Assembly: GCF_000717715.1 (NCBI RefSeq)
Contig: NZ_JOAI01000023.1
Location: forward strand, 62,001-126,000
Direction: 5' to 3'
Length of the DNA: 64,000 nt
From: Streptomyces sp. NRRL B-24484
GTDB taxonomy: Bacteria > Actinomycetota > Actinomycetes > Streptomycetales > Streptomycetaceae
Of the stretch, positions 1 through 50,311 are shown piece after piece. The stretch's first letter is position 1. Every line of letters begins with the position of its first letter. The notes beneath the pieces were generated by a model. That model was not told where the DNA came from and made no database searches. It was given only the letters and a program-made list of their open reading frames with translations. A program made the position numbers and the translations under genes.

Positions 1-362
1 ATCGTTTCGGCGGCGAGCCGGTCGACGGCGCGGCCGGCCGGCGTCGACTCCGCGATGCGCGCGGCGTCGACGTCGGCCAGGGCGCCGAGCTCGGCCAGGC
101 CCGTACGGGCGCCGCGGTTGAAAGCCTCCGCGACGACGTCGTGCACCTCGGTCGTCATGGCGGTGCCGAGCGCGTCGACGACGCCCTGCGCCGCACGGCG
201 CAGCGGCTGCACGTCCGCCAACTTGGCGACCGCCCACCCAGGGGCCTCGAATCCGTCGGCGAGCTGCCTGGCCACGATGCCGAGCAGACGCTGCTCGGCA
301 TCGGCGTACAGGTCCCGGACCCGGTCGGCGAGATCCTCAGCCATCCACGGGGAGACGGGCAC
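1..362 (-). CDS. Phage minor capsid protein, N-terminal part (gene runs off the window)
   Basis: This open frame has no stop inside the window. The readable 120 residues begin VPVSPWMAEDLADRVRDLY and continue as an alanine-rich helical sequence of the kind that opens phage minor capsid (Phage_min_cap2-like) proteins. Position fits: in Siphoviridae late operons this gene follows portal. I chose the GTG at 360-362 because GGGGGTGATC lies just upstream, a near-perfect complement to the 16S tail; the ATG at 342-344 has no such site. The family call is from sequence feel and gene order, so the role is moderately supported; the reading frame is well supported. Confidence 0.65.
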   Translation of the reverse strand, partial: MPVSPWMAEDLADRVRDLYADAEQRLLGIVARQLADGFEAPGWAVAKLADVQPLRRAAQGVVDALGTAMTTEVHDVVAEAFNRGARTGLAELGALADVDAARIAESTPAGRAVDRLAAET

Positions 363-418
363 GCGATCACCCCCCAACGGCCAACGGCGTTGTCAGCGCG
401 GCCAGATACCGTCGGTCC

Positions 419-1423
419 ATGACGAATGCGCCCGCCGAGTTCAAGCTCGGACAGATCGGCACCCGCCCGCAGATCTGTGCCGTCTACGGAGGTAGCCGGA
501 ACAGTGGTGGGATCGTGCCCTCACGCGAGCGGAAGAGCATCACTCTGTTCTCCGATCACGAGGTCGGAGTCACGTTCGGGTACCACGACGGATGGCTCGC
601 CGAAGAGGACGAGGTCGGCCCGATCTTCGAATACACGGGCGCAGGCAAGAAGGGACACCAGACCTTCACCGGCAAGTACGGCGGTAACAATGCTGCTGTC
701 CGGGACCACGTCAAGGCTGGTCGTCGCCTGCATGTGTTCGTCGCGGTCGACACGGTGCCGGGCACCGGCACCAAGCGGCACCGGTACGTCGGCGAGTTCA
801 CTCTCGACACGGCAAAGCCCTACGTCGTCCGCGAATCCCTTGGCGAGGACAAGCAGCCGCGGCGTGCGATCGTCTTCCGGCTGCGTCCGGTCGGCATCGT
901 GCAGCGTGTAGCCGAAGACGAGATCCCGCCGGCAGCAGTCACCGGAGGGAAGCTGGTCGCCGCGGCAATCACCGCCTGCAAGCTCATCGAGCCGGAGAAG
1001 AACACGAAGAAAAAGGGCAAGCGGTCCGCCGTGCCGGAAGTCGAGGCGCAGCGCCGTGAGGCGTACCTCAGCGACGCATTCGAGGCGTACCTCACCGCGC
1101 AGCAGCACACCGTCGGCCGCTTCCAGATCAAGATCAAGGGCCGAACGTCAACCCTGCTCACGGATCTGTACGACCAGACCGACCACGTGCTGTACGAGCT
1201 CAAGGGCACCAACACCCGTGAGGCGGTCCGCATGGCGCTCGGCCAGCTGCTCGACTACGGCCGGTACGTGAAGACCGACGAGCACCCCGAGATGCCGCGC
1301 CGCGTGGTGCTGCTGCCCTCCCTCCCCGACGAGGACCTGCAGGAACTGCTCGCCGATCACGGGATCGGCATTGCCTACCAGGACGGCGACACGTTCATCG
1401 GTGTGCCGCCGTCCCTCAGCTGA
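419..1423 (+). CDS. Predicted modification-dependent endonuclease (SRA-like plus PD-(D/E)XK)
   Basis: A 334-residue protein with two recognisable parts. Residues about 45-165 contain GVTFGYHDGW and a following FEYTGAGKKG/KYGGNNAAV segment, resembling the SRA-like domain of ScoMcrA-type enzymes that read modified DNA. Residues about 210-275 look like a PD-(D/E)XK nuclease core: acidic residues at 249, 252 and 255, then the E-L-K triad at 260-262 followed by a helix rich in Gln/Leu. It would cut DNA bearing modified bases. It stands alone on the plus strand between leftward portal and minor capsid genes and overlaps the portal 3' end by 8 bp, as expected for an acquired moron gene. Domain calls are by eye; target modification is unknown. 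The ATG has only a weak ribosome binding site. Confidence 0.7.
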   Translation: MTNAPAEFKLGQIGTRPQICAVYGGSRNSGGIVPSRERKSITLFSDHEVGVTFGYHDGWLAEEDEVGPIFEYTGAGKKGHQTFTGKYGGNNAAVRDHVKAGRRLHVFVAVDTVPGTGTKRHRYVGEFTLDTAKPYVVRESLGEDKQPRRAIVFRLRPVGIVQRVAEDEIPPAAVTGGKLVAAAITACKLIEPEKNTKKKGKRSAVPEVEAQRREAYLSDAFEAYLTAQQHTVGRFQIKIKGRTSTLLTDLYDQTDHVLYELKGTNTREAVRMALGQLLDYGRYVKTDEHPEMPRRVVLLPSLPDEDLQELLADHGIGIAYQDGDTFIGVPPSLS

Positions 1424-2885
1424 CGAACGCCGGGACCGGGTCGGCAATGGCCAGTCCGGTCTCGGCGTGGATGCGCTGCACCTCGGCCGCGACCGCATTG
1501 CGGTCCCACTCGGGGTGCAGGATGCGCACCTTCGTCTCGGTGGATACGGCCTGCGCCTGCGCGAGGAGAGATAACGTCTGTGCTGTCGACGTTGGGTCTT
1601 CGGCGACCGCCGGCCCGACGGCGACTCGGGGCCGCTCGGGGGTGACGGTGGAGAAGCCGAGCGCCCGGTCCAGCTGCAGCAGCGTGCCGAGAATCCCGGC
1701 CAGCGGCGGGCAGGTGTAGCGGGCTTTCGTCTTCCGGGTGGTCATGCTCCGATGCTCGCGCGCGTCAACCTCCGTGGCAGTCATGGCGGTTGATCCACCG
1801 TCGAGCCCGAACGTCTGCGCCGAGTAGCCGGCGCTCTCGGCGATCTGCCGCACGAGCGCGTCGGCGGACCGCTGGTGCTCCTCGACCCGGATCGCGAACT
1901 GCGACAGCGTGATGCCGGCACCGGTCTCGGTCGGCGGGATATCGAGGGCGTGCCAGATGTCCCGGTCCTCGTCGAACGTGGCCCCGTTGCCCGGCCCGCG
2001 GTCGCGGAGATAGCCGGCCGGCACGATCAGCCGGGCCCGGGCGAGGCGGATGTCGCGCATCCACGACGTCCACACGCTGTCGAGCGCGTCGAACAGGTGG
2101 TGCACCCCCTGAAAGTCGGAGCGGCCAAGCGGGGAACCGCGGTGCTTCCGGTTGGGGCCGATGTTGGGCAGATAGGCGGCGGTCACGGTGTCGATGCCGG
2201 TCTCGATCACACCGGACGGGCCAAGAGAGTCGACGTAGGCCGCGGTCGTCGGGTGCTCCGTGAGCGGCACGGCGCGGCCGAGATTGTCGACGGTGCCCAG
2301 GTACAGGCCGTGCGAGATCATCCCGCGCTCGTGCCGCTCCAGCCGGCGCAGGACCTGCGAGCCGGTGCGCTCCAGCTCAGACCAGAACGTGACGGCGACC
2401 AGGTGCCCGAACCGGATCTCGGGCACGGCGGCGTCGTGGTGCACGGCGGTGAGCAGCGGACGCGGGCCGATCTCGGCATCCCATGCCGCAGAGAGGTACA
2501 CCCCGCCCAGAGCCGCGGACACCTCGGCCGCTTCGAGCAGGGTGTTCGCGAGCCCGGTCGCGTCGGTGATCTCGTCGAGGCGGGCCTGCGTGGCGGTGTC
2601 CTCGACGGTGAGCGTCGGCGGTTCGGCGAACAGCAGGCGGGCCGATGTGCAGGCGACGTCGGCCGGCATGGGGATGTGCAGCCGGGTGTCGGGCCGGCCC
2701 GGGGCCGGGGTCCGGTCGCGTCCCCACAGCCGGCGCCGGCCGCTCTGCTCGGCGGGCTGGTCGCGGTAGACGGTGGCGAGCTTGGTCGGGTCGCCGGAAT
2801 ACCACGCATCGTCGATGCGCATCTCGGCGAGCTCGCCGGCCCACTGCCGGGGCGGCCACGGCACGTTGTTGTCAGGCAGCGGCAC
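1416..2885 (-). CDS. Phage portal protein (SPP1 Gp6-like)
   Basis: A 489-residue protein immediately downstream of the large terminase, with which it overlaps by 14 bp. Length, position and a mixed sequence containing a long central helical region (around DSVWTSWMRDIRLARARLIV) fit the SPP1 Gp6-like portal family, which forms the dodecameric DNA entry ring of the capsid vertex. The C-terminal third contains the TATEVDAREHRSMTT segment and a Gln/Ala-rich stretch common in these proteins. Its 3' end converges with the opposite-strand nuclease gene. No frameshift or truncation is visible. Confidence 0.85.
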   Translation of the reverse strand: MPLPDNNVPWPPRQWAGELAEMRIDDAWYSGDPTKLATVYRDQPAEQSGRRRLWGRDRTPAPGRPDTRLHIPMPADVACTSARLLFAEPPTLTVEDTATQARLDEITDATGLANTLLEAAEVSAALGGVYLSAAWDAEIGPRPLLTAVHHDAAVPEIRFGHLVAVTFWSELERTGSQVLRRLERHERGMISHGLYLGTVDNLGRAVPLTEHPTTAAYVDSLGPSGVIETGIDTVTAAYLPNIGPNRKHRGSPLGRSDFQGVHHLFDALDSVWTSWMRDIRLARARLIVPAGYLRDRGPGNGATFDEDRDIWHALDIPPTETGAGITLSQFAIRVEEHQRSADALVRQIAESAGYSAQTFGLDGGSTAMTATEVDAREHRSMTTRKTKARYTCPPLAGILGTLLQLDRALGFSTVTPERPRVAVGPAVAEDPTSTAQTLSLLAQAQAVSTETKVRILHPEWDRNAVAAEVQRIHAETGLAIADPVPAFVS

Positions 2886-4128
2886 GGGTCACCTCCTGCA
2901 GCAGGTCGGAGATCAGGTACCGCCACTCGGCGGCGGTGGAGTGGACGACGTAGCGCAGCGCGTCGGCCGAGTGGTCGTCGCGCTTGAGCGGTCGGTCTTC
3001 GCCGGCCGCCGCGGCAGTTGCGTCCCATGAGTAGCCGGGCAGCTCGCCGAGCAACCCCTCGCACGAGCGGTGCACGAGCAGCAGGCCGGACGCGAGAGCG
3101 GTCGACGTCGACCGGATGCCGTCCAACACGTCGTTACGGGCCCGGGTCACCCCGGGGTGCCCGTCCTCCCACAGCTGTGCCAGGAACGAGGCGGCCGACG
3201 GGTCAATGAACGTCCACTCGGGCTCAACCTGCAGCGCATCCAGCCACCCGCGCAGGGCCGCGCTGTACTGCGCATCGGTCATCTGCCGGCGCCGGGCGCG
3301 GGAGTCGTATCGCCACTCAGCGCAGGCGTACAGCCGGCCGTCGTCGCCGAGCCCGAGCAGGATCGCGGCGAAAGGATTCGTCGTCCCGTAGTCGATGCCG
3401 AGCCAGTAGCGGGACATCGCCGGCAGCTCGTCGACGACGTGCTGCTGCTCGTCCCAGCAGTCGTAGATCGCGCCCTCGGCCACCACCCACGCACCATCGA
3501 TCATCCGCCGCCGCCACAGACCGACGTACTCGGCCTGCAGCGACGCCACATAGGCCGGCGACAGCGAGGGATTGTCCGCGAGACGGAAGTGCCATGACCT
3601 CAAGTCGAGCTCGTGCTCGCGGTCGAGGTAACCGGCCTTGAGCCAGTGGCGCGGACTGTCAGGGTTGGTGGTCGCCAACAGCTTGGCGCCGGGCACCGAG
3701 AGGCGCGCGAGTAGCTGGGTCCAGAAAGCCTCTGGCAGCAGGGTCGCCTCGTCGACGTACGCGAGCGAGGCAGTCAGGCCACGCAGCCGGCCCTCGGCCC
3801 GCGCATCCGCCGCGCCGATCAAGTGCACCGTGCGGCCCAGGATGACCGCGGTTGTCGCGCCGCGGGTATGCCGGACCTGCGCCGCGACCGGCCCAAACAG
3901 CGCCGGATCGGCGAGCGGCTCCAGCACGTTGCGCTCGATCGTCTGCAGGCTGCGCCCAACGATCACGATCAGGCCGGACCGCGACGCCTCGGCCACGGCC
4001 AGAAGGAACGCGAGCAGGCTCGCCACCGTCTTGCCGCTTCGCACGGCGCCGTGCCAGAGGTTGATCCGGGCCTGCGCCTGCGCCACAGACCGAAGCTGCT
4101 TGCGAGACAGCGGAAGGGAGTCGAGCAC
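2872..4128 (-). CDS. Phage terminase large subunit
   Basis: A 418-residue ATPase-nuclease that pumps DNA into procapsids and cuts it. The Walker A motif HGAVRSGKT lies near residue 26, Walker B LAYVDEAT near 125, and the RNase H-like nuclease carboxylates are seen in GIDYGTTNPF (about 245), FIDPSA (about 305) and DDHSADALRY near the C terminus. Arrangement is that of the PBSX/Terminase_6 group. The GTG start at 4126-4128 is preceded by GGGGGGTGAGCT, and the gene begins 3 bp after the small subunit stop, indicating translational coupling. It is complete. Confidence 0.93.
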   Translation of the reverse strand: MLDSLPLSRKQLRSVAQAQARINLWHGAVRSGKTVASLLAFLLAVAEASRSGLIVIVGRSLQTIERNVLEPLADPALFGPVAAQVRHTRGATTAVILGRTVHLIGAADARAEGRLRGLTASLAYVDEATLLPEAFWTQLLARLSVPGAKLLATTNPDSPRHWLKAGYLDREHELDLRSWHFRLADNPSLSPAYVASLQAEYVGLWRRRMIDGAWVVAEGAIYDCWDEQQHVVDELPAMSRYWLGIDYGTTNPFAAILLGLGDDGRLYACAEWRYDSRARRRQMTDAQYSAALRGWLDALQVEPEWTFIDPSAASFLAQLWEDGHPGVTRARNDVLDGIRSTSTALASGLLLVHRSCEGLLGELPGYSWDATAAAAGEDRPLKRDDHSADALRYVVHSTAAEWRYLISDLLQEVTRAAA

Positions 4129-4131
4129 AGC

Positions 4132-4647
4132 TCACCCCCCGTCCGCGGCCCCCTCGTCCTCGTCGGCGAACGCAGCCCGCAGCCCCTTGGCCAAGTCGGT
4201 GAGCATCGACCGCACCTCGTGTCCGGACGTGCCGGCGTCGATCTCGGCGAGCCGTGCCGCACTGGTCAGATAGCCGCCGATGGCCTGTGAGTGGTGCCTC
4301 TCGTCCTGCGCTGGCGGGTGATCGCTCACCACCTCGACCGTGTCACCGGTCGGCAGCAGCTCGACCCGCACGTACTCGTCGGCCTCGACCCGGTCCAAGT
4401 TGGCTGCGGCCCGCCGGTACAGACGGGCAGTCAGGTCGCGGCGCAGCGCCGCGAGATCCTCCTGCCGCGCAGCGGTAGCCGCGGCAATCCGAGCGCCGCC
4501 GGTGAACGGCAGGCCCAACTCGCGCGCGATCTTCGACACGGTCGAGCTGCTGCGCCCGATCGCGGCGGCGATGGCGTTGCGGCTGCGCCCTTCAGCGTGC
4601 AGGCGGCGGACTTGGTCGCGGTCGTCTTCGCCGATCGGATCTCGCAT
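4132..4647 (-). CDS. Phage terminase small subunit (HTH DNA-recognition protein)
   Basis: A 171-residue protein directly upstream of the large terminase. Residues about 10-45 form a resolvase-type helix-turn-helix (GRSRNAIAAAIGRSSSTVSK), followed by a helical region and an acidic C terminus, as in small terminases that recognise the packaging site. I chose the internal ATG at 4645-4647 (MRDPIG) over the ATG 12 bp upstream because TTGGGGG sits at the right distance. The region just upstream carries direct repeats that may be its target. Confidence 0.82.
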   Translation of the reverse strand: MRDPIGEDDRDQVRRLHAEGRSRNAIAAAIGRSSSTVSKIARELGLPFTGGARIAAATAARQEDLAALRRDLTARLYRRAAANLDRVEADEYVRVELLPTGDTVEVVSDHPPAQDERHHSQAIGGYLTSAARLAEIDAGTSGHEVRSMLTDLAKGLRAAFADEDEGAADGG

Positions 4648-4701
4648 GTTGACCCCCAACTCGCTGTCGAAATCGAGGTGAAAGAGCGTCGATCTCGTTC
4701 A

Positions 4702-12893: not shown

Positions 12894-14615
12894 CTATGCC
12901 CCGAGCGTCATCCCCTTCGGGGTGACGACCACATACCGCTCGATGGTCTCGGCCGTGGGCCGAACGCCCTGCCCCGGACTCTTCAGCCGGACATCAAGCA
13001 AGGCCGCGGCGATGAGGCGTTGCTGCTCCAAGTCAAGCTGCTTCCAAGCCTTCGCGACGTCCTCGCGACTCCCGACGGCGATGTCCTTGACGACCGGAGG
13101 CACTCGCAGGGTCGTCAACTCCTTCTCCGCCTCCTTGATCTTGGGTTCGAGATCATCCTCGATCGCGGCCAGCGCCGCCGGAGAGATCTCGCCGGCCGCT
13201 GCCGACTTGTAGAACGCACGCAGGCGTGTCTGAAGGATCGTGAGCTCGGCCTGCTTGTCGGCGTGCTTCTTCGCCCGCTTCTCGTCGGCCGCAAGGTAGG
13301 CCGCGAACCACTTCGGCTCTGACAGCCAGTCAAACATCTGGCCCGCGACGTACTTGTCGACGAGCTCGACGTCGAGCGAGAAGTGGAAGCCCTTGGTCTC
13401 CCCGTGTCCCGGCGTCTTGCACTTGTACTGGGTGACCTGCTTGCCCTCGCCGGTTTCCGGGTCGATCGTCCGGTGCCGGCGGCTGCCGGTGTAGAAGATG
13501 AAAGTGCACTTGTGGCAGCGCCCGATGCCCGAGAGCCAGTGTGCTGCGGCGGTCGGTCGAGAACCTTCCCGTGTCGACGCGCGCTTCGTGCTGATCGCCA
13601 AGCAGCGCGCGTGTGTTGACGGGTCGATGATGGCCGGCCACGCGTTCTCTTTGGTCGCGACGCCATGGCTTACCCGAATGCCCAGGTAACGGGGGTCATT
13701 CGCGATCTTCTTGATCGTCCACGTGTTCCACTCCGCGGCCACGGCCGGCAGGGCCCGCTCGTTGAAGTCGGCGGCGATGCTTGCCGCAGGCTCCTCGTCT
13801 CGGAGCAAGCGGCTGTTGGCCTCTGCCCGGATCTCGGCGTGCATCGGGTGATCCCTCACCGGACCCAAGGCGACCGTCTCGACCTGCTTCGCGGTCCACC
13901 GCTCGGCCGGCGGTGGAATCCTCTTCGCCTCCAGCTCCCGCCTGATCTTGGCCGGCCCGTCGCCGTCGGCGTACCGGGTGCAGATGAACCGGACGACCGG
14001 CGCCTCGTCCTCCTGCAGCACGACCTCGACAAACGCGCCAGTGCGCTCGTCGTAGACGCGCCTGTACCCGTACGGGGTCGGACCGTGCGGCCGGCCGTTC
14101 GCAGCGTTCGCGCGAAGCGACCGCTTGACGTTGTCCCGAAGCTCGTCGACCTCGCGCTCGCCGACCAGTGCATCGAGGCCGGTCCGGAACCGGTCATCCT
14201 TCGACGCCATGTCGTAGACGCGACCACCGTAGACCAGCAACACGCCAGCAGCGGCGCACGCGTCCCGCAGACGGACGTACACCGCCAAGTCACGCTGCAG
14301 CCGGGTCGATGCCCACGAGATCACCATGTCGAGCCGGCGGTGCGCAATGTCGTCGAGCAGCCGCTCGAACTCGTCACGCTCGCCACGGCCGTAACGCGAC
14401 GCCGAGATGCCGTCATCGACGTACTCGCATCCCAGGTCAACCGTCACGCCGAGCCGGCCGGCGTCCGCGTGCGACGCTTCGAGCTGCTCCGCGACCGACC
14501 GGTGCTTCGACTTCTTCTTACCCGCGTAGTTGGACTTGCGGGCGTAGATGCCCGCCCGCATCCCCTCGTAGGACACCCGCTGCCCAGGCGCTCCCGCGAA
14601 CGTTTCCAGCGCCAT
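12894..14615 (-). CDS. int: Large serine integrase of the prophage
   Basis: A 573-residue large serine recombinase. The resolvase domain starts at about residue 20 with GIYARKSN, catalytic serine 28, followed by DDGISASRYGRGERDEFERL. The recombinase domain spans about 170-320 (NAANGRPHGPTPYGYRRVYD). A zinc ribbon follows with IGRCHKCTF and a second Cys/His pair in YKCKTPGHG, then a coiled-coil region (ADEKRAKKHADKQAELTILQ). It would recombine attP with attB. I chose ATG 14613-14615 because AGAGGGGG lies 4-11 bp upstream; the ATG seven codons earlier lacks a site. It abuts the attachment site, as usual for these phages. Confidence 0.95.
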   Translation of the reverse strand: MALETFAGAPGQRVSYEGMRAGIYARKSNYAGKKKSKHRSVAEQLEASHADAGRLGVTVDLGCEYVDDGISASRYGRGERDEFERLLDDIAHRRLDMVISWASTRLQRDLAVYVRLRDACAAAGVLLVYGGRVYDMASKDDRFRTGLDALVGEREVDELRDNVKRSLRANAANGRPHGPTPYGYRRVYDERTGAFVEVVLQEDEAPVVRFICTRYADGDGPAKIRRELEAKRIPPPAERWTAKQVETVALGPVRDHPMHAEIRAEANSRLLRDEEPAASIAADFNERALPAVAAEWNTWTIKKIANDPRYLGIRVSHGVATKENAWPAIIDPSTHARCLAISTKRASTREGSRPTAAAHWLSGIGRCHKCTFIFYTGSRRHRTIDPETGEGKQVTQYKCKTPGHGETKGFHFSLDVELVDKYVAGQMFDWLSEPKWFAAYLAADEKRAKKHADKQAELTILQTRLRAFYKSAAAGEISPAALAAIEDDLEPKIKEAEKELTTLRVPPVVKDIAVGSREDVAKAWKQLDLEQQRLIAAALLDVRLKSPGQGVRPTAETIERYVVVTPKGMTLGA

Positions 14616-39603: not shown

Positions 39604-39885
39604 GTGAAGTCGATTGTTGCAGGCCAGCATGCCGTGGACCCGGAGGAGTTCGCGGAGCTGGCGTTGGGCGTGGACGAGAAGCTGTTCGCCGGCGTGCCGG
39701 GCGAGTCGCCGATCGAGCGTAAGGCCCGGATGGACGCGGCGCGGGACATCCTGGCGGACCTGCGCCGGGAGGACCGGGAGCTGGCCGACTACGCCGAGCG
39801 CCTGATGAGCGAGGCCCCGGTCCCGCTGCACACCGCCCGCCGCACCGGCGCCCGCCGACCGGTCCGGCTGGGGGTGGCGGCGTGA
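39604..39885 (+). CDS. Small AICE protein of unknown function
   Basis: A 93-residue protein, GTG start behind GAAGAGGTAG. It reads VKSIVAGQHAVDPEEFAELA and has a charged helical middle (IERKARMDAARDILADLRRE). The stop overlaps the start of the DUF2637 gene (GTGA). It is the first gene of a coupled series. No family recognised. Confidence 0.65.
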   Translation: MKSIVAGQHAVDPEEFAELALGVDEKLFAGVPGESPIERKARMDAARDILADLRREDRELADYAERLMSEAPVPLHTARRTGARRPVRLGVAA

Positions 39886-40772
39886 ACCGCCGGGCGAAGT
39901 TCTGGATGGTCGCCGCGCTGCTGGTGGTCGTCGCGATGGCGTTCCGGGTGTCGTGGAACGCGCTGAAGGATGTGGCGCACGCGGTCGGGGCCGATTGGCT
40001 TGCCGCCGACCTCTACCCGCTGGTGGTGGACGGGCTGATGGCGCTGGCGCTGGTGGCGGCGCTGGTGCTGACCGGTCGGGACCGGCGGTTCGCACTGTGG
40101 GTGCTGGGCGGCTACACGGTCGCCTCGCTGGTGCTCAATTACGTGCACGGTCTGGTGCCCGCCCTGCATGACGGCGGTCGGGTCCGGTTGGCCGACTGGC
40201 CGCCCGCCCACTACGCGCTGGTCCTGCTCGCGTCGTGCCTGCCGGTCGGCTCCATCTTCTTCGGATCCGACCTGGTGGCCAAGGTGCTGCACCACCAGCC
40301 CGAACCGGAACAAAACATCCAGGTAGTGACAAACCGGTCGGTGTCTGAGCTGGCCGTTTCCGCCGACCCGGAGCCGTTCGAGTCGGTGTACGAGTCGGCC
40401 GACCCGGAGCCCACCCCGGTGGCGGCGGCTGCCGAGGCGAAGCCGACCGCGACGCGGGCGAGTCGGCCCCGCCGGGCGACCGGCAGCGTGCCGCCGTCGG
40501 CCCGCGCCAAGGTCCCGACCCGCACCCTCGACCAGCTTCTGACCGAGGCCCGGTCGGCCACCGTCGACTGGTCGGACGCCGAGCTGACCGCCGACCGCAT
40601 CCGCGAGGCCGTCCGCACGTCGTCCGCCAACGGCCGACTACTGCGCGAGGCGCTGAAGGCCGAGCGCGTCGAGTCGGCCGACCGGCCTGCGCTGCACGCC
40701 GTCCCCGACCCGGCCCCCACCGCCACTACCGACTCCGCCGACGCGGCGGAGGGCGAGGAGAAGGCATCGTGA
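39882..40772 (+). CDS. DUF2637 membrane protein (spread-type)
   Basis: A 296-residue protein. Four membrane segments occupy the first 130 residues (MVAALLVVVAMAFRVSW, LVVDGLMALALVAALVLTG, FALWVLGGYTVASLVLNYV, YALVLLASCLPVGSIFFGS), the DUF2637 domain found next to transfer genes of actinomycete plasmids. The C-terminal 160 residues are cytoplasmic, Pro/Ala/Thr/Glu-rich, with a helical SARAKVPTRTLDQLLTEARS region. Probably helps intramycelial spread. Coupled to both neighbours. Confidence 0.82.
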   Translation: MNRRAKFWMVAALLVVVAMAFRVSWNALKDVAHAVGADWLAADLYPLVVDGLMALALVAALVLTGRDRRFALWVLGGYTVASLVLNYVHGLVPALHDGGRVRLADWPPAHYALVLLASCLPVGSIFFGSDLVAKVLHHQPEPEQNIQVVTNRSVSELAVSADPEPFESVYESADPEPTPVAAAAEAKPTATRASRPRRATGSVPPSARAKVPTRTLDQLLTEARSATVDWSDAELTADRIREAVRTSSANGRLLREALKAERVESADRPALHAVPDPAPTATTDSADAAEGEEKAS

Positions 40773-41107
40773 GCACCCGCACCGCTGAAGACCAGATCAA
40801 CGCCGCCCGCGTGCTGGTGACCATGGCCGCCGCGTTCCGCCACCTGCCGGCCCCGGCGCCTCGACTTGAACGACTCCCCAAGAGCACCGACAGCACCGTG
40901 TTCACGTGGGGCGTCACCCTCGCCGTCCACGACCACCTCGGCTACTTCGAGCTGTGGCGCGAGGCCCTGGGCCTCGACCCTGCCGCCGTGCGCGCCAGCC
41001 TGGAGGAGGACTACACGAACTGGCTGGAGGTCTCGGGCGTCTGGTCGGGGGTCCCGGTGCAGGTCATCGGCTACTTCCGGTTCCAGGACCCCGAGCACGC
41101 CCGGTGA
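40769..41107 (+). CDS. AICE protein of unknown function
   Basis: A 112-residue protein starting at a GTG that overlaps the previous stop. It contains a compact region STVFTWGVTLAVHDHLGYFE, LWREALGLDPAAVRASLEED and ends with VQVIGYFRFQDPEHAR. The composition is that of a real cytoplasmic protein, but I do not recognise the family. Its stop overlaps the GTG of the RRQL gene. Confidence 0.65.
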   Translation: MSTRTAEDQINAARVLVTMAAAFRHLPAPAPRLERLPKSTDSTVFTWGVTLAVHDHLGYFELWREALGLDPAAVRASLEEDYTNWLEVSGVWSGVPVQVIGYFRFQDPEHAR

Positions 41108-41481
41108 GCCGGCCGCGCTTCTGGGACCCGGCCGGTGAGCGGTTCGGCATCCCCACCTTCCCCTGGAAGATGGCCCCGGACGGCCTCTGCACCCGCCGCC
41201 AGCTCCGCGCCCGGGACCTGCGGCCGAACGGCCAGCCCGTGGCCGCGCAGATCCTCTGGTTTTCCCGCCGCTACGCGGGCGGGGTGCGGGCGGCGTTCCT
41301 GTACCGGCCCGAACTCGCCGCCCCCGTCCGGCCGATGACCGACGCCCGACGGCGCGCACTCGCGGCTGCGAACCGCGCCCGCCGGATGTGCCCCACCTGC
41401 GGGCTCGACGCGGGCTACGTCCTGCCGGCCCATCTGGGCTGCTGCCTGATCTGCGAGTACGGCGATCCGCTCGCCGCCTGA
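41104..41481 (+). CDS. RRQL motif-containing zinc-binding protein
   Basis: A 125-residue protein typical of AICEs. It has the conserved APDGLCTRRQLRARDLRPNG stretch with the RRQL motif and a C-terminal zinc site: MCPTCGLDAGYVLPAHLGCC then LICEYGDP. The GTG overlaps the upstream stop. The family is widespread in Streptomyces mobile elements; its role in transfer or replication has not been defined as far as I know. Confidence 0.82.
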   Translation: MSRPRFWDPAGERFGIPTFPWKMAPDGLCTRRQLRARDLRPNGQPVAAQILWFSRRYAGGVRAAFLYRPELAAPVRPMTDARRRALAAANRARRMCPTCGLDAGYVLPAHLGCCLICEYGDPLAA

Positions 41482-41529
41482 ACCCCTGCGACACCCACTG
41501 ACCTCGCCACGATCCCAGGAGAGTCACCG

Positions 41530-41949
41530 ATGACGGACGCCCTGATCCAGGTCGGAATCGAGACCATCGGCACGCTGCACCCCGAGGCCCTCGGCCTGAT
41601 CCGCGACGGCCTCTACTTCGACCTCGGCGGCCAGTTCCGCAACCCCCACCACGACCCCGCGATGCGCTACCGCACCGGCCTCGACCCCGAGGTCCGCGAA
41701 CACGTCCTTACCACCCCCGGCGTGATGCCGATGGTCGAGCGGATCGCCGAGTCCGCCAAGGCCGTCCACCGCGCCTACGCCGACCCCCGCCACCTGCTCG
41801 TGAACGTCACGATCGCCTGCCGCGGCGGCCGGCACCGCTCCGTCGCGGTCGCCGAAGCCGTCGCCGCCTACCTGCGCACAGACGGCATCGGCGTCGAGGT
41901 CCACCACCGCCACATCGACCGGCCGGTCATCGAGAACCAGGCCGACTGA
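41530..41949 (+). CDS. RapZ C-terminal-domain-like protein
   Basis: A 139-residue protein. The motif TIACRGGRHRSVAVAEAVAA matches the C-terminal domain of RapZ (C-x-GG-x-HRS-V), which in enterobacteria binds regulatory RNA and metabolites. The N-terminal P-loop ATPase domain of full RapZ is absent, so this is a stand-alone C-terminal domain. AGGAGAG precedes the ATG. In AICEs this domain recurs in the transfer region; its function there is unknown. Confidence 0.75.
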   Translation: MTDALIQVGIETIGTLHPEALGLIRDGLYFDLGGQFRNPHHDPAMRYRTGLDPEVREHVLTTPGVMPMVERIAESAKAVHRAYADPRHLLVNVTIACRGGRHRSVAVAEAVAAYLRTDGIGVEVHHRHIDRPVIENQAD

Positions 41950-41966
41950 CCACAGGGGAGGAACCG

Positions 41967-43598
41967 ATGTCCCAGACCTACGCCGAACCGCCCCTCACCC
42001 CCACTACCCCGGCGCCGGCCGAGCAGACGGCCCGCCCGGCCACCGCTCCGGCTGAGCAGGTCCGGGGGCAGGCCTCTGCCCCGGTCTTGCACACCCGGGG
42101 CGGTCTGCCGGCCGTCCCGCTCGCGGTGACCACCGCGAACGCGATGGTGGGCCTGACGTCGGCCGCCGTGCTGACCTCCGGCCCCCTCGCCGCCGCTGCC
42201 GCGACCGTCGGCACCGTGGCGACCAGCGCCCTCGCCGCCCGGATCGCCCGCCGCACCGCGAAAAAGGCCGCCCAGCGCGCCACCTCCACCGCCCGGGGCA
42301 CTGCCGGGCGACGCCCGGGGCACCTGTCCCTGGTCAAGTCACCCGCTGGAGGCCGTGGTTCGTCCCCGCGTGCCGGCACCGGATCGGTGGGGCCGCCGCG
42401 CCCGACCCGGAGCGGGACCGGCACCACCGGCCGCACCGGCACCGGCCCGGCCGCGAGTTCGCTTCCGCTGTCGGCGGGAAGCCGCGGGCCTCTGTCCGGC
42501 ACGTCCGGTTCGGTGCGGAAGTCGTCGTCCGGTACAGGCAAGGCGGCCCCGGGCCGTCTGGCCGCGCGGGCCGGTGAGGTGAAGGCGGTCCGGAAGGCGG
42601 ACCGTGAGGTGATGCCGTCGCGGGCCGAGCGCCGGACCGGCCAGACCGCGGCCCGCCGGCAGGTCGCCGACACCCGCCGCGCCGCCAAGGCCGCCGACCG
42701 CGAGCGGAAGGACGCCCGGCGCGGCCGGATCGGGAAGGCCCTGGCCAAGCCCGCCGCGCTCGCCCGGCAGTCCCTGGACAGGGCCCGCACCAGGAACCGA
42801 ACGGCCGCCGACAAGCGGGCGGAGCGGAGGGTTGCGGACGCCCGCCGGGAGGCCCGCAAGGCCCCGCTCCGCCGGGCGGCGATGTTCGCGCTCCGCAAGT
42901 CCGCGGCCCGGTTCCACGGCCGGCGCCTGATCGCCGCGCTGCTGGCGCTGCCGGTCGGGGCCCTCGGGGCGCTGACCACCCCGCTCGGGCGCCGGCTCGG
43001 CGCCTCGTGGTTGATGCACCCCGGCCGGCGCCTCTACCACTGGCTGGTGGGCAGGGCCGCCGGGGCCCGCGCCGAGCGGGACGCCCGGATCCGCGCGGAG
43101 CTGGCCGACGCCGAGCAGGCCGTGGACGAGGCCATCGACCACCCCGAGGACGCCCCCGAGCCCGTGGCCGACACCGTGCCGCGCGCCCCGAAGAGCCACA
43201 ACGCCCAGCCCGAACTGACCGCCCTGGGAGGCGACATGCCCAGCACCACCGAGTCCGGATTCAACTTCTCCGAGGTCGCCTCCGAGATGTACAGCGCGGC
43301 GATGAACTACGACCCCGACGGCATGATGTCCGTCCTCGCCGCCATGGAGTCCATGCCCGAGGGCCTGGAGTCCATCGCCAACACCTTCCGCGTCCTCGCC
43401 GAGCGCTCCGACGGCGAGTTCCCCCTCGACAAGTCCGTCGGCGAGGCCCTGAACGAGGTCTTCATGCTCCTCATGTCGGCCGTCAGCGCCTCCGAGGAGG
43501 TCTCCAAGCTGTTCCGCCTCATGCACGCCCACGACATCTCCCGCCACGAGGACCCCCGCAACGGCGAGGAGAAGTGGGACATCAGCAACAACCAGTAG
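41967..43598 (+). CDS. Large AICE transfer-region protein (spread-type)
   Basis: A 543-residue protein. Residues about 50-100 include a membrane-prone stretch (LAVTTANAMVGLTSAAVLTS, AAAAATVGTVATSALAARIA). Residues about 110-330 are highly basic and low complexity, with repeated ADRERKDARRGR-like blocks, followed by another membrane-prone segment (LIAALLALPVGALGALTTPL). The C-terminal 115 residues are a separate acidic helical domain (GFNFSEVASEMYSAAMNYDP). It lies directly before tra, the place of spread proteins. Specific function unknown. Confidence 0.7.
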   Translation: MSQTYAEPPLTPTTPAPAEQTARPATAPAEQVRGQASAPVLHTRGGLPAVPLAVTTANAMVGLTSAAVLTSGPLAAAAATVGTVATSALAARIARRTAKKAAQRATSTARGTAGRRPGHLSLVKSPAGGRGSSPRAGTGSVGPPRPTRSGTGTTGRTGTGPAASSLPLSAGSRGPLSGTSGSVRKSSSGTGKAAPGRLAARAGEVKAVRKADREVMPSRAERRTGQTAARRQVADTRRAAKAADRERKDARRGRIGKALAKPAALARQSLDRARTRNRTAADKRAERRVADARREARKAPLRRAAMFALRKSAARFHGRRLIAALLALPVGALGALTTPLGRRLGASWLMHPGRRLYHWLVGRAAGARAERDARIRAELADAEQAVDEAIDHPEDAPEPVADTVPRAPKSHNAQPELTALGGDMPSTTESGFNFSEVASEMYSAAMNYDPDGMMSVLAAMESMPEGLESIANTFRVLAERSDGEFPLDKSVGEALNEVFMLLMSAVSASEEVSKLFRLMHAHDISRHEDPRNGEEKWDISNNQ

Positions 43599-43712
43599 CC
43601 CGCCGGAACCACAGGCGCTCATCGGGCCGCCCCGCCACTTGCGCTGGGCGGCCCGACCCATCCCCGCACCCCGCACTACCCGCCACCGCCCCTGCTGCCG
43701 CCTGGAGCTGCC

Positions 43713-45893
43713 GTGAATCAGCCCGAGCACACCCTGAACCTCACCAACCTCCCCCAGCCCAAGACCCCCAAGCCCCGCACCACCAAGGGGAAGACGTCCC
43801 TGCTGCCGCCGCTGGACTGGGCCGCCACCCACGGCCCCGTCTCCGGCGCCGTCTCCGCCGCGACCGGCGCCGGCGCACTCGCGCTGCTCGGCGCCGCCAC
43901 CCACATGCCCCCCGGCATCCCCCTCTACGTCGGCGCCGCGGGCGCGGTCGGGCACGGCATCGGCGTCAGCATCCGCCGCCGCCTCACCGGCCGCACCATG
44001 GCCGGCCGCGCCGCCTCGTGGCTGCTCGCCGGAGGCTGGACCACCTGGGCCATCTCCACCGGCCCGCTCTCGTGGGCCGCGGCCGGGACGCTGGCCGCGC
44101 TCGGTGTCGGGATCGGCGCTATGGCCTCCAACGCGGCGATCCGTGAGGAGGCTGTGGAGCTGGAGCGCATGAGCGACGAGGCCCGCACCGCCGCCGCCAA
44201 GATGAACGGGGAGCGCGAGAAGATCGCCCGGGAGTGGGCGGAGCGGATCCACCGCGTGACCGGGGTCCAGGTCGCGGTGTTCGCGGTCGAGTTCTGGAAG
44301 ACCGGCGCCGGGTTCTCCCTCGCTGCCGAACTCCCCGGCGGCTCCGCCACCTGGGACCGCATCGCCTCCCAGGCCCGCGCGCTCGCCACCGACGCCCGGC
44401 TGCCGCTCGGCTGCACGGTGTGGGTCGAGGAGGGCGACCGTCAGGGCCGCATCGTCCTCGACATCGCCACCGTCAACGTCATGGCCCAGGACTTCCCCTA
44501 TCCGGACGACTTCTCGGCTCTGTCCATCCTCACCGGCATCCCCTGGGGCCTGCTGCCCAACTCCGACGCCGCCACGGTGCTGCTGCGCGAGGCATGCGCG
44601 CTCGTCCTGGGCCCGCCCGGATCCGGCAAGTCCACGTTCATCGACGTCGTCCTCGCCGGGTTCGCCCGCTGCACCGACGTGCTCACCTTCGTCATCGACC
44701 TGAAGGCCGGCGCCGCCGGCATCCCCTGGGTCCGCCCCTGGCTGGAGGCCCGCGGGCTGAAGGCACCGAAGGCCGGGGTCGTCCCGGTGCCGCAGGACAC
44801 CGAGCCCGGCATCGACTGGCTCGCCTCCACCCCGGACGAGGCACTGCGGCTGATGCAGGCCGTCCTGCGGATCAACGCCGCACGCCAGCACGGCTACCAG
44901 GATCTGTTGGACGCCCGGGACACCACTCTGCTGCCCGTGTCGGCGGACCTGCCGCAGATCGAGGTGGTCGTGGACGAGGGCGCCGAGCTGCTGTCCGCGG
45001 CGTCGTTCGGCGACCCGACGATGAAGGCCCTCCAGGAGGCCGTGAAGAAGGCCATGCGCACGACCCGCGCGATGGGGATCCGGTTCGTGCTCACGGCCGT
45101 GGACGGCAACGTGTCCGCGCTCGGGGACACCGCCGTCCGCAAGTTCTCCCCGGTCGGGGTCGCGCTGACCTCCGGGGAGTCGTCCGGGAACAACCTGCAC
45201 AAGCTGTTCCCCAGCGCGAAGGTCGACACCCGCCAGCTCCGCGCGAAGGGCTGCGGCGTCATCGGCGCCGCCGGCGCGGACGGCTTCGCCCCCACCGGCT
45301 TCAAGGGCTGGAAGACCAGCCCGAGCCTGGTCCGCCAGGTCGTCCTCGCCACCAACGCCCGCCGCCCGGCCCTCGACTCCATCTCCGCATCAGCCGCGGG
45401 CGAGGACTACGCCCGCCGCTGGTCCCCCGAGCGCGCCGGATGGCTCTGGGAAGGCACCACCGCGACCCCGACCGCGCCGGCGCCCGCACCGACATCCGGG
45501 GGCGGGCTGAACCTCTCCGCCCTCCGCACCATGGCCGCCCCCGGCGACGGCGGCGACGCGGCCCGGGACGGACTGGCGGAGGTCATCGCCTTCCCCAACA
45601 CCCGGCCCCAGGGCCTCAACCTCTCGTCCCTTCGCGAGGACACCCTGACGCCGACGCCGACGCCGACGCCGCAGCCGCACGCCGCCACGGCCGGGCCGGA
45701 GTGGCTGGCCGACGCGATCGACGCGATCGAGTCCGCCGGGCCGATGGGCCTGAAGGTCGCCACCGTCGCCGACATGGTCGACCGGAACCGCAAGACCGTC
45801 CGCGCCGCACTCCAGGACGCCGCCGAGCGCGGCGAACTGGTCTACCGCGAGAACGGCCCGCAGTCCGTGTTCCTCCACCCCGACCATGCTTGA
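43713..45893 (+). CDS. tra: FtsK/SpoIIIE-like conjugal transfer translocase
   Basis: A 726-residue protein that would move double-stranded DNA between hyphae. Two to four N-terminal membrane segments (AATGAGALALLGAATHMPP, AASWLLAGGWTTWAISTG, WAAAGTLAALGVGIGAMAS) anchor it. Walker A is GPPGSGKST at about residue 300 and Walker B EVVVDEGAELL at about 416. The last 60 residues form a winged helix (GLKVATVADMVDRNRKTVRA) like the FtsK gamma domain that reads DNA repeats. Repeats lie immediately downstream. GTG start. Confidence 0.9.
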   Translation: MNQPEHTLNLTNLPQPKTPKPRTTKGKTSLLPPLDWAATHGPVSGAVSAATGAGALALLGAATHMPPGIPLYVGAAGAVGHGIGVSIRRRLTGRTMAGRAASWLLAGGWTTWAISTGPLSWAAAGTLAALGVGIGAMASNAAIREEAVELERMSDEARTAAAKMNGEREKIAREWAERIHRVTGVQVAVFAVEFWKTGAGFSLAAELPGGSATWDRIASQARALATDARLPLGCTVWVEEGDRQGRIVLDIATVNVMAQDFPYPDDFSALSILTGIPWGLLPNSDAATVLLREACALVLGPPGSGKSTFIDVVLAGFARCTDVLTFVIDLKAGAAGIPWVRPWLEARGLKAPKAGVVPVPQDTEPGIDWLASTPDEALRLMQAVLRINAARQHGYQDLLDARDTTLLPVSADLPQIEVVVDEGAELLSAASFGDPTMKALQEAVKKAMRTTRAMGIRFVLTAVDGNVSALGDTAVRKFSPVGVALTSGESSGNNLHKLFPSAKVDTRQLRAKGCGVIGAAGADGFAPTGFKGWKTSPSLVRQVVLATNARRPALDSISASAAGEDYARRWSPERAGWLWEGTTATPTAPAPAPTSGGGLNLSALRTMAAPGDGGDAARDGLAEVIAFPNTRPQGLNLSSLREDTLTPTPTPTPQPHAATAGPEWLADAIDAIESAGPMGLKVATVADMVDRNRKTVRAALQDAAERGELVYRENGPQSVFLHPDHA

Positions 45894-45910
45894 CCATCCA
45901 TCACTCTCCG

Positions 45911-46029
45911 CTACTGGCTACTGGTTACTGGCACCGCCCCAGTAGCCAGTAGAGCGGTCCCGTGGACCCAGAATCGGGTTCTGTCCTGCGGATTACCCAC
46001 TACCCAGTAGCCAGTAGCCACCCCAGTAC
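45911..46029. repeat. Heptamer repeats after tra, candidate transfer locus (clt)
   Basis: Eight CCAGTAG-type heptamers: CTACTGG, CTACTGG, TTACTGG (45911-45931) in one orientation, then CCAGTAG twice (45939-45952), CCAGTAG twice (46004-46017) and CCAGTAC (46023-46029) in the other. They fill the non-coding gap directly after the Tra winged-helix codons. Streptomyces TraB proteins recognise tandem 8-bp repeats at clt. Confidence 0.7.
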
Positions 46030-46119
46030 GACCATGCACAGCAACCAGCAGGGCCCCGCCCAGCACGCCCCGGGCGGGGCCCTGCGGCTGCCCGAAACCG
46101 GCTCGAAGGGATGCCCACT

Positions 46120-46308
46120 GTGATCGTCTCCGTCAGCCTCACCGTCCTGTTCACCGTCCTCGCCCTGGTCCTGATCTGGAGCCGCCGGGTCGGCGCGTTC
46201 GCCGGCACCGTGCTGTTCCTCGCCGGGTTCACCCTCGCCTCGACCGGCATCGCCGGGCCCGTGAACGCCTTCCTCGCCGCGATCGCCGCCGCCGTCACCA
46301 GCCGCTGA
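46120..46308 (+). CDS. Small AICE membrane protein
   Basis: A 62-residue protein with two membrane segments (VSLTVLFTVLALVLIWSRRV and TVLFLAGFTLASTGIAGPV). I favour the GTG at 46120, placed well behind AAGGG; the ATG at 46111 is too close to it. Similar small membrane proteins accompany tra in AICEs and may take part in spread. Confidence 0.65.
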   Translation: MIVSVSLTVLFTVLALVLIWSRRVGAFAGTVLFLAGFTLASTGIAGPVNAFLAAIAAAVTSR

Positions 46309-46328
46309 CCCGAACGGAGCCCAGTGCC

Positions 46329-46544
46329 GTGCAGCCCACCGTGCCCGGGATCCGGCCGCTCGCCGCCGTCCACCTGCGCGAGGCCCTCACCGCCACCGCC
46401 AACGGTGACCCGACCCTCGCGCTCGCCGCCCTCATGCACATCGACAACGAGTCCTGGCAGGGCATCCACCACCGCCTCGCCGTGCTCGGTACCGACCTGC
46501 TCGACGTCCTCGCCCACACCGCAGCAACGGGAGGCACCCAGTGA
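46329..46544 (+). CDS. Small AICE protein
   Basis: A 71-residue protein starting at GTG 46329. It is helical (LAAVHLREALTATANGDPTL, WQGIHHRLAVLGTDLLDVLA). Its stop overlaps the next start. Small proteins of this kind are frequent between tra and rep in AICEs. No function assigned. Confidence 0.6.
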   Translation: MQPTVPGIRPLAAVHLREALTATANGDPTLALAALMHIDNESWQGIHHRLAVLGTDLLDVLAHTAATGGTQ

Positions 46545-46819
46545 GCACCACCAGCGACCTCATCACCGCCGCCGTCCTCTTCGGCCCCGGCGCCCTGCTC
46601 TCCATCCCCGTCATCGCCTCCCAGCGTGGCGCCCGCGCCGACTCCGAGCGCGTGCAGGCCGTCCTCGCCCTCTCCGCCTACGAGCGCGCCGCCGCCCTCG
46701 CCGAGACCGAGCAGGACGCCCCCGCACCGCCGGACGGCGGCGAGCCCATCACCCCCGTGACCGAGCCCGCCCAGCGGCTCGCCACTGTCATCGACTTCCC
46801 CGCCCGCCACGCCGCCTGA
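46541..46819 (+). CDS. Small AICE protein with N-terminal hydrophobic segment
   Basis: A 92-residue protein, GTG overlapping the previous stop. Residues about 8-28 are hydrophobic (LITAAVLFGPGALLSIPVIA), giving one membrane anchor or signal; the remainder is acidic and Pro-rich with a terminal IDFPARHAA. No family recognised. Confidence 0.6.
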   Translation: MSTTSDLITAAVLFGPGALLSIPVIASQRGARADSERVQAVLALSAYERAAALAETEQDAPAPPDGGEPITPVTEPAQRLATVIDFPARHAA

Positions 46820-46830
46820 AAGAGGATCAC

Positions 46831-47148
46831 GTGGACCACGACGAGTACTACGAGGACCCCGACGGCTGGTACGACGCGAGCGAGCCGTACGACCCGGCCG
46901 AGGAGAAGGCCGCCGAGATCGCCCTCGACCTCGCCGACGAGGCCCGCTGGGCCGCCGAGGAAGCCGCCAACCCGCAGCCCGGACACACCGAGATGTGCGA
47001 GGGCTGCCACGGCACCGGCGGCGGCTACGAGGACGAAGCCTGGGACGACGAGGCCCAGGACTACGTCCCCATCGACTACGAGGACTGCCCCGAGTGCGGC
47101 GGCTGCGGCTACTACGACTGCGACGCCACCTGCGACAACGCCGGATAG
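46831..47148 (+). CDS. Acidic protein with DnaJ-type zinc-finger motifs
   Basis: A 105-residue, very acidic protein starting at GTG 46831 behind AAAGAGGA. The C-terminal half holds CEGCHGTGGGY and CPECGGCGYYDCDATC, the C-x2-C-x-G-x-G repeats of the DnaJ central zinc domain, without any J domain. It may bind zinc and act as a small chaperone or scaffold. It lies 10 bp upstream of the prim-pol gene, suggesting a link with replication. Confidence 0.7.
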   Translation: MDHDEYYEDPDGWYDASEPYDPAEEKAAEIALDLADEARWAAEEAANPQPGHTEMCEGCHGTGGGYEDEAWDDEAQDYVPIDYEDCPECGGCGYYDCDATCDNAG

Positions 47149-47157
47149 GCGCCGGCC

Positions 47158-48300
47158 GTGGCCGCCCTCGACTGGCGAGACGCCCGGCACTACGACCGCA
47201 CCACCGACAAGCCCTGCCGCTGGTGCGGCCTGCCCACCCCACTCCGCGACGACCAGCGTAGACCCGCACACAAGGTCTGCGCTGAGCAGCAGCAGAACAC
47301 CGACACCAGCACCCCGCCCGCCGCTGCCGTCCCGGTCGCGGAAGGCGGAGTGCTGCCCCAACTCGACAGACAGGAGAAGTCATTGGCCCATTGGGACCAT
47401 GCGCTGGCCGCCGCGCACTTCGCCGCCGAGCGCGGCATGCGGGTCTTCCCCATCACCCGTATGAAGAAGCCCGCGATCCCCAGCCCGCACCCGCCCGGCC
47501 ACGAGCGCGACGAATGCCGCGCCGCATGCGGCCGGTTCGGTCACGGCGTCCACGACGCCACCACCGACCACGCCCGGATCGACGCCATGTTCCGCGCCGC
47601 CCCGTGGGCGACCGGGTACGGGATCGCCTGTGGCCGGGCGCCGCATCACCTGATCGGCCTCGACCTCGACCGCAAGAACGGCCTCGACGGCGTCGCCGAA
47701 CTCGCCCGCCTTGCCGCCGAACACGGCTTCACCGTCCCGGCCACCGCAACCGTCTCCACCCCGACCGGTGGGCTGCACCTGTGGCTCACCGCCCCTCCCG
47801 ACGCCGTGTTCCCGAACTCGGTTGGCGTCGTCGGCCCCGGGATCGACGTGCGCGGCCCGGGCGGCCTGCTGGTCGGCCCCGGATCGTATGGGGCAAGGGG
47901 CCGCTACGGCTTCGCCTCCGGAACCGACCCCAGCACCGTCGCACCGTGCCCGCCGGAGCTGCTGGCCCTGCTCACGCCGCCGCCCGCACCCGCCGCACCG
48001 GTCGTGGATCCGGCCGAGTTGCGGGACCGGGTCCGCCAGCAAGACGCCTACACCCGGGCCGTCCTCGACGGCGAGGCCGCGAAGGTCCGGGCCCAGTCCC
48101 ACCCGGGGCGGGCGAAGCGGCTGTTCGCCTCCGCCGCGTCCGTCGGCCGCCTGGTCCACGCCGGCACCATCCCCGAAGCCCTCGCCCTCGACACCCTCCT
48201 CGACGCAGGCATGGCCACCGGCCTCACGCGCTCCGAGTGCGAGCGCACCATCACCCGCGGCCTCGCCCGAGGCGCAGGCACCCTCCGATCTGCCGCCTGA
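47158..48300 (+). CDS. Bifunctional DNA primase/polymerase (AICE replication)
   Basis: A 380-residue protein. A short zinc motif opens it (CRWCGLPTP ... KVCAEQ). The prim-pol domain spans about 80-270: WDHALAAAHFAAERGMRVFP, then HLIGLDLDRKNGLDG with the catalytic D-x-D, TPTGGLHLWLTAP with the conserved His, and GIDVRGPGGLLVGPGS. AICE elements with this protein replicate their excised circle (RepAM-type). The following DUF3987 gene probably acts with it. Confidence 0.88.
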   Translation: MAALDWRDARHYDRTTDKPCRWCGLPTPLRDDQRRPAHKVCAEQQQNTDTSTPPAAAVPVAEGGVLPQLDRQEKSLAHWDHALAAAHFAAERGMRVFPITRMKKPAIPSPHPPGHERDECRAACGRFGHGVHDATTDHARIDAMFRAAPWATGYGIACGRAPHHLIGLDLDRKNGLDGVAELARLAAEHGFTVPATATVSTPTGGLHLWLTAPPDAVFPNSVGVVGPGIDVRGPGGLLVGPGSYGARGRYGFASGTDPSTVAPCPPELLALLTPPPAPAAPVVDPAELRDRVRQQDAYTRAVLDGEAAKVRAQSHPGRAKRLFASAASVGRLVHAGTIPEALALDTLLDAGMATGLTRSECERTITRGLARGAGTLRSAA

Positions 48301-48408
48301 CCGCACGTCCTGGGCCAAGGCGCGGGGGCGGAGAAAGCTGCTTTCTCCGCCCCCGCCCCTTCCGGCCCGCACCTGCCCAACCCACCCCGTGTGAGAGGAC
48401 TTCTGCCC

Positions 48409-49989: not shown

Positions 49990-50015
49990 ACCACCCGCAT
50001 GAAGCCCCGGGGTGC

Positions 50016-50264: not shown

Positions 50265-50311
50265 GCCCCAGGCCCTCCCACCCGAGCACACCGCCGCAGG
50301 AGGACCCACCG

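Follow-up and report, generated by a model that had tools for sequence, protein, structure and literature searches.

The MspJI family of restriction enzymes (MspJI, AspBHI, LpnPI and FspEI) is defined by an SRA-like reader and a PD-(D/E)XK-type nuclease in one chain (PMC3874153). The gene considered here, SRA-REase, encodes a protein of the same layout, with the SRA-like reader N-terminal and the PD-(D/E)XK-type nuclease C-terminal, and is found in a prophage of Streptomyces sp. NRRL B-24484. It was examined in a window of 64 kb (positions 62001-126000 of contig C23 in genome G000, 8.86 Mb), and positions given below are those of the window unless a contig or locus is named.

The SRA domain of SRA-REase is of the same type as that of ScoMcrA and the SRA-HNH enzymes ScoA3IV and TagI. 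However, those enzymes use an HNH nuclease, and ScoMcrA a sulfur-binding domain, whereas SRA-REase has a PD-(D/E)XK nuclease and no sulfur-binding domain. HHPV4I, a virus-borne SRA-wH-HNH protein, is also a modification-dependent nuclease carried by a virus and has been proposed to exclude other viruses, but the virus is archaeal, the modification is N6-methyladenine and the nuclease is HNH, and the available parts of that report do not mention a damage promoter (PMC10101028). The defence hotspots of P2 and P4 phages are likewise fixed sites in temperate phages whose antiviral cargo varies (PMC9122126), but the site of SRA-REase is the junction between the portal and MuF genes, where it lies antisense, in prophages of Streptomycetaceae. 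The promoter of SRA-REase is alike in type to RecA-NDp, the PafBC-dependent, RecA-independent damage promoter of actinobacteria, which has been reported ahead of recA and of the UV-inducible SCO6735 in Streptomyces coelicolor. However, the PafBC regulon members named in the available text belong to repair, stress and other categories (recA, uvrA, egt genes, SCO6735, Rv1955-1957), with no restriction enzyme among them (PMC6789036, PMC8223512, PMC5087735, PMC2897130, PMC11804915). Other WYL-domain regulators have already been tied to defence systems such as CBASS, but they adjoin their own defence genes, whereas SRA-REase would use the PafBC of its host (PMC9122588, PMC9122601).

We favour, with moderate confidence, the reading that SRA-REase, a cargo of mobile elements, is a stand-alone restriction nuclease that depends on DNA modification (Type IV-like) and is inducible by DNA damage.

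The SRA-REase protein

SRA-REase occupies 419..1423 on the plus strand and encodes 334 aa from an ATG start, as indicated by the list of open reading frames (ORFs), homologues, conservation and a structure model. It was likewise chosen by a simple gene caller that had been trained on codon usage, and the ORF is far from chance, because searches at E<=1e-3 recovered 425 homologues in one case and 845 in another. The original prediction, made from the letters alone, had proposed an SRA-like reader fused to a PD-(D/E)XK-like nuclease, and this is borne out by fold and conservation. In the AlphaFold2 model (pLDDT 90), a ScoMcrA-type SRA domain (residues 5-166, 431..916) is followed by a PD-(D/E)XK nuclease domain that spans roughly residues 206-327 (1034..1399), both on the plus strand. 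A structure search found both folds, with AspBHI of the MspJI family as the best Foldseek match, and the layout is that of the MspJI type, namely an N-terminal SRA-like domain and a C-terminal (D/E)..(D/E/Q)XK nuclease in one chain. The match to MspJI-type chains is one of fold, as PDB chains gave no sequence matches at E<=10. The pairing of the two domains is not itself new (PMC3874153). The SRA domain is of type PF26348 and ScoMcrA-like, being 26 % identical to the ScoMcrA-type SRA in a structural alignment. The Pfam scan of the protein found no HNH domain, and the C-terminal fold and invariant residues are those of PD-(D/E)XK nucleases; the sole trace in that scan was a sub-threshold match to Tox-REase-9. 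In PHROGs, phrog_15103, a family of unknown function, matched the SRA part (E 2e-17), and there was one further weak match. None of the 120 matches listed for the protein was named as a structural phage protein.

The motifs quoted in the original prediction are present where it placed them, and D249, D252, E260 and K262 are invariant in all 50 aligned relatives, but D255, which it had included, varies. The putative base pocket (Y55-x-D57 and Y72-T73) and the nuclease residues D249 (1163-1165), E260 (1196-1198), K262 (1202-1204) and Q276 (1244-1246) are likewise invariant in 50 of 50. In SRA domains the flipped base sits between two aromatic residues, with an aspartate at its Watson-Crick edge; it is held by Tyr55, Asp58 and Tyr67 in TagI, by Tyr416, Asp418 and Tyr428 in SUVH5 and by W69, D71 and Y82 in AspBHI. 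The putative pocket of SRA-REase, assigned by motif and not by superposition of coordinates, fits this cytosine-reading pattern. An archaeal SRA-HNH relative that scores above the PF02182 cut-off has Y55, D57, Y72 and T73 in common with it.

A putative damage-type promoter

The upstream regions of SRA-REase genes share the element TTGTCRGTG-N8-TAnnnT, about 6 nt ahead of the start codon, which corresponds to the RecA-NDp motif. In the window, this RecA-NDp/PafBC-like promoter is TTGTCAGCG-N8-TACCGT (390..412 on the plus strand, C23:62390-62412), with 1 mismatch over the 12 defined positions and 6 nt to the ATG, a leaderless arrangement. The gene was compared across 97 loci (L027-L116, L214-L218, L004 and L132), among which there are a few near-duplicates, e.g. 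L054/L113 and L040/L214. When scored at no more than 2 mismatches and 3-10 nt to the start, the motif was found ahead of 34 of the 97 SRA-REase genes and of 6 of the 1613 other genes of the same loci, and the reversed motif was ahead of none of the 97. It is present in 9 of 9 loci where the gene lies in the phage slot (near-duplicates included), and also ahead of the slot copies L171 and L173.

Taken by itself, the 64-kb window has three matches at up to 2 mismatches, a number that chance can explain (16 of 100 shuffles). Over the whole genome, at up to 1 mismatch, there were 55 sites versus 1 for the reversed control, and about 13 distinct sites among the 30 inspected had, by reading, a start codon 3-10 nt downstream (ORF of at least 80 aa). 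Six such genes were scanned and encode RecA, UvrB, an AlkZ-like glycosylase, a 2OG-Fe(II) oxygenase, a SWIM zinc-finger protein and one protein without a match. A further site lies 52 nt ahead of a gene that we take to be ruvC, and tandem WYL genes on contig C39, near what is presumably the Pup ligase gene, were taken for pafB/pafC. Searched at E<=0.01, the genome holds two SRA-REase genes, the prophage copy and one on contig C35 (locus L004; 38 % identical), and both carry the site (C23:62390-62412 and C35:55106-55128). As the promoter is of RecA-NDp type, induction by DNA damage or single-stranded DNA is predicted (PMC11804915), in place of the expression merely in the lysogen from the opposite strand that had originally been expected.

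Another gene of the same head operon, for Endonuclease VII (PF02945; L003:11341-11901, C23:59341-59901, minus strand), has a one-mismatch RecA-NDp-like motif 3 nt ahead of its ATG. Of the loci compared, no other than this prophage (L003, L107) has this gene.

Locations of SRA-REase

In the prophage, SRA-REase lies between the MuF-like minor capsid gene, of which the 5' part is at 1..362 on the minus strand (C23:60131-62362, continuing left, from the flank sequence), and the portal gene (1416..2885, minus strand; phrog_533, E 1.5e-104). The portal gene is convergent with SRA-REase, with 8 nt shared at their 3' ends. A GTG at 362, preceded by GGGGGG, is the start codon of the MuF gene, and a longer ORF reaching 377 is also listed. 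A 32-kb viral contig, L107, matches the NRRL B-24484 prophage at 100 % in every gene compared, and in this contig the six genes called on each side of SRA-REase are all on the minus strand. The ORF, the gene caller and these strands agree with the original prediction of a real gene that is alone on the plus strand between leftward portal and minor capsid genes.

To survey this slot, the portal protein was searched against 394 genomes of Streptomycetaceae, giving 44 places in 39 genomes, own included, all of which were inspected. In 8 of the 44 the MuF gene was not recognized directly behind the portal gene. The remaining 36 slots comprise 25 that are empty (portal and MuF no more than 24 nt apart by tblastn ends), 3 with SRA-REase, 7 with another antisense ORF (48-296 aa, some perhaps too short to be genes) and 1 with a sense ORF. 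Seven of the eight cultured Streptomyces phages in which the portal region was inspected have an empty slot, and the eighth, Alderaan, has an annotated antisense gene of 59 aa. The search suggested originally, for homologues in the same slot of other actinophages, was positive: SRA-REase is in the slot at 7 of 10 loci on viral contigs, including the prophage described here, and at 2 of 80 loci on genome contigs (L054 and L057), with L054/L113, L108/L173 and L118/L174 apparently the same prophages seen twice. Among 50,697 phage records searched with tblastn, the protein was found only in two records of Gordonia phage Sidious. The junction is empty in the close relatives L118, L174 and L175 (portal 71-72 % and MuF 86-87 % identical), and comparison with them places the insertion between the portal stop codon and the MuF ribosome-binding site, which is preserved. 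SRA-REase is thus placed as a moron would be, with its own transcription unit (promoter by motif only) between conserved genes and missing in close relatives. The portal-MuF junction serves as a site for antisense cargo, usually empty and sometimes holding other ORFs.

SRA-REase entered this slot at least twice. In a tree of 93 rows, the 8 slot rows fall into two distinct groups and the starred branches require at least 2 changes; a single clade of slot genes, i.e. one origin, was rejected (p-AU 0.0019). The slot itself was also rejected as the source of the damage promoter: of the 12 gapped slots scanned that lack SRA-REase, none carries the motif at up to 2 mismatches, and it is the gene that the promoter accompanies.

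Other antisense ORFs in the slot were noted. The 279-aa protein of L109 (L109:9076-9915) and the 296-aa protein of L172 look related, have a GC content below that of their own phage and are candidate cargo; the former had no Pfam matches at E<=0.01 and no PADLOC matches. Those of L187, L189, L127, L176 and L185, among which the short ORFs may not be genes, look membrane-bound or lipoprotein-like by eye and possibly act in superinfection exclusion. The L187 protein (262 aa) had no Pfam matches at E<=0.01.

Among the 97 loci, 9 are in the phage slot, 22 are within 10.5 kb of markers typical of actinomycete integrative and conjugative elements (AICEs), 5 are near integrase/xis genes only and 61 have no marker. 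The AICE markers are gene clusters drawn from the same 97 loci; Pfam supports the integrase and PrimPol, FtsK/Tra matched only below the cut-off (20.7 versus 24 bits) and Rep had no Pfam matches. The names Rep, Spd and Xis are our assumption. In 10 of the 22 (L004, L065, L067, L068, L069, L074, L077, L080, L081 and L216), SRA-REase runs against minus-strand markers that flank it left and right, the usual order being integrase, Rep, PrimPol, SRA-REase, Spd, FtsK. By plain counts, the motif is present at 30 of 36 loci in mobile elements versus 4 of 61 elsewhere (Fisher 6e-15). The gene itself is patchily distributed, with matches at E<=1e-20 in 17 of 100 genomes, NRRL B-24484 among them.

Away from mobile elements, a gene of a helicase/PLD/DUF3427 family lies immediately downstream of SRA-REase at 11 loci and in its vicinity at 15 of the 97, and the copy in L039 matches the PADLOC model for Type IV methyl-directed restriction (1487 bits). 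A gene for a 268-aa protein is convergent with SRA-REase in 8 of the 16 loci listed (L038, L040, L041, L044, L047, L084, L085 and L089); in L041 its product belongs to DUF6602 and shows NucC-like similarity, and the two genes possibly form a two-nuclease cassette. L041 also holds Vsr and a C5-methyltransferase. In protein P0121, a C5-methyltransferase is fused to an entire SRA-REase, and the 30 % identical homologue in Gordonia phage Sidious lies beside two N6/N4 methyltransferase genes. Other fusions are HTH plus PF26345 (P0005), PF26345 (P0107) and a long N-terminal part with no listed Pfam domains (P0126). In L218 (G015:C3), the match is confined to the nuclease part (residues 208-333, 81 % identical) and may be a remnant.

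Further genes of the prophage are the terminase large subunit (2872..4128, minus strand; library scan), an HTH-like protein where the small subunit is expected (4132..4659, minus strand; phrog_5536, E 5e-42, unknown function) and, at the right end, a serine integrase (12894..14615, minus strand; PF00239, PF07508) adjoining what we take to be purA. Scaffold and capsid genes, so named from position, presumably lie left of MuF, outside the window. Among named homologues, those closest to the protein come from Kitasatospora, and the prophage is Kitasatospora-like. The window also contains an AICE-like element (39634-51705) with an ATPase in the FtsK position (43713-45893; sub-threshold AAA match only), PrimPol (47158-48300), DUF3987 (48415-49989) and a tyrosine integrase (50500-51705). 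It is without SRA-REase, because the only matches in the genome are the prophage and C35 copies.

Restriction and the alternatives

Structure, conservation and neighbours together indicate modification-dependent restriction. The Type IV, NucC-like or methyltransferase neighbours of some relatives fit a role in defence, and the similar placement of some in other mobile elements suggests a weapon between such elements. The original proposal of a prophage-carried defence against modified DNA is therefore plausible, though as a prediction from sequence. The SRA domain would flip a modified cytosine into the aromatic/aspartate pocket and the PD-(D/E)XK domain would cut near the flipped base. As cargo, the gene would travel in prophages, on the strand opposite to the flanking portal and MuF genes, and in many AICEs, where it runs against the replication and transfer genes that enclose it. 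From its leaderless promoter, the nuclease would be made once PafBC senses single-stranded DNA or DNA damage, and would then cut modified incoming DNA of competitors. Antisense transcription from the late or transfer operon of the element would tend to shut it off; given the antisense place in the prophage, opposition by the prophage's own late transcription is predicted. More tentatively, and as a possibility that we regard as rather doubtful, actinobacterial prophages and AICEs may use the host's single-stranded DNA-sensing PafBC as an infection alarm. On the appearance of invading or damaged DNA, this alarm would fire, through a leaderless damage promoter, a solitary SRA-PD-(D/E)XK nuclease that is off at rest and re-silenced antisense by the late or transfer operon, and the whole would amount to a Type IV restriction system, inducible by damage, for conflicts among mobile elements.

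Several observations weigh against these proposals. The protein had no PADLOC, NCBIfam or above-threshold Pfam matches (in a Pfam copy without PF26348). In the distant Sidious homologue D57 is not aligned and position 72 is F. The authors of the ScoMcrA work state that the residues of UHRF1/SUVH5 for 5-methylcytosine are not kept in the ScoMcrA SRA, and the modification dependence of HHPV4I is not due to its SRA (PMC10101028), so that an SRA domain need not mean reading of 5-methylcytosine. By the scoring used, 63 of the 97 loci lack the motif, as do nearly all relatives at about 31-35 % identity. Phylogenetically independent pairs weaken its link with mobile elements (median p 0.07, range 0.04-0.45), and we therefore do not claim this link as established. 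SRA-REase is codirectional with the markers in 9 of the 22 AICE-marker loci, so antisense placement is not general.

A repair nuclease would account for the promoter as well as restriction does; its SRA domain would read a base that is damaged or carries an aberrant alkyl group, and its nuclease domain would nick next to that base, protecting element or host. We consider it unlikely, as the neighbours and fusions of relatives (Type IV enzyme, NucC-like and methyltransferase genes) fit it less well, the putative pocket resembles those of cytosine-reading SRAs and the distribution is patchy. A damage-type promoter inside a prophage, together with the motif ahead of Endonuclease VII, could instead point to host takeover, in which the nuclease, made at damage-triggered induction, degrades methylated DNA of the host or a competing prophage and spares new, unmethylated phage DNA. 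This is improbable: the same gene and promoter occur at AICE-marker loci, and such elements would presumably need a living host; the genome has one, partial, C5-methyltransferase match; and late transcription would work against SRA-REase.

The fusion in P0121, the C5-methyltransferase near the gene in L041 and L084 and the two methyltransferase genes in Sidious would suit the restriction half of a methyltransferase-linked restriction-modification system that later became solitary. However, the gene is solitary in the prophage slot, and a C5-methyltransferase of the P0121 type was found in 2 of 90 loci at E 1e-5 (other methyltransferase types were not sought there), and we give this origin little credence. 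Clean insertion between two conserved genes, with empty relatives, is also what a selfish, free-standing homing endonuclease of the head operon would leave, but the opposite strand, own promoter, SRA domain and unrelated sites in AICEs and chromosomes make this very improbable.

SRA plus PD-(D/E)XK enzymes (MspJI), virus-borne SRA enzymes (HHPV4I), phage defence hotspots and defence-linked WYL regulators are already known. As far as searches show, the ScoMcrA-SRA/PD-(D/E)XK subfamily as mobile-element cargo, the antisense portal-MuF site and, above all, a damage-type promoter on a restriction enzyme are new. A literature search that covered few subscription journals found no study of this subfamily and, in titles and abstract openings, no damage-inducible modification-dependent enzyme.

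Restriction enzymes are usually viewed as standing guards. If the favoured reading is true, a modification-dependent nuclease that is coupled to DNA damage and carried by rival mobile elements would tie defence to the RecA-independent damage response of actinobacteria, and would point to further promoter-tagged cargo genes. Whether PafBC serves as an infection sensor would become a directly testable question, and the portal-MuF junction in Streptomycetaceae prophages is a place to seek new antiphage genes.
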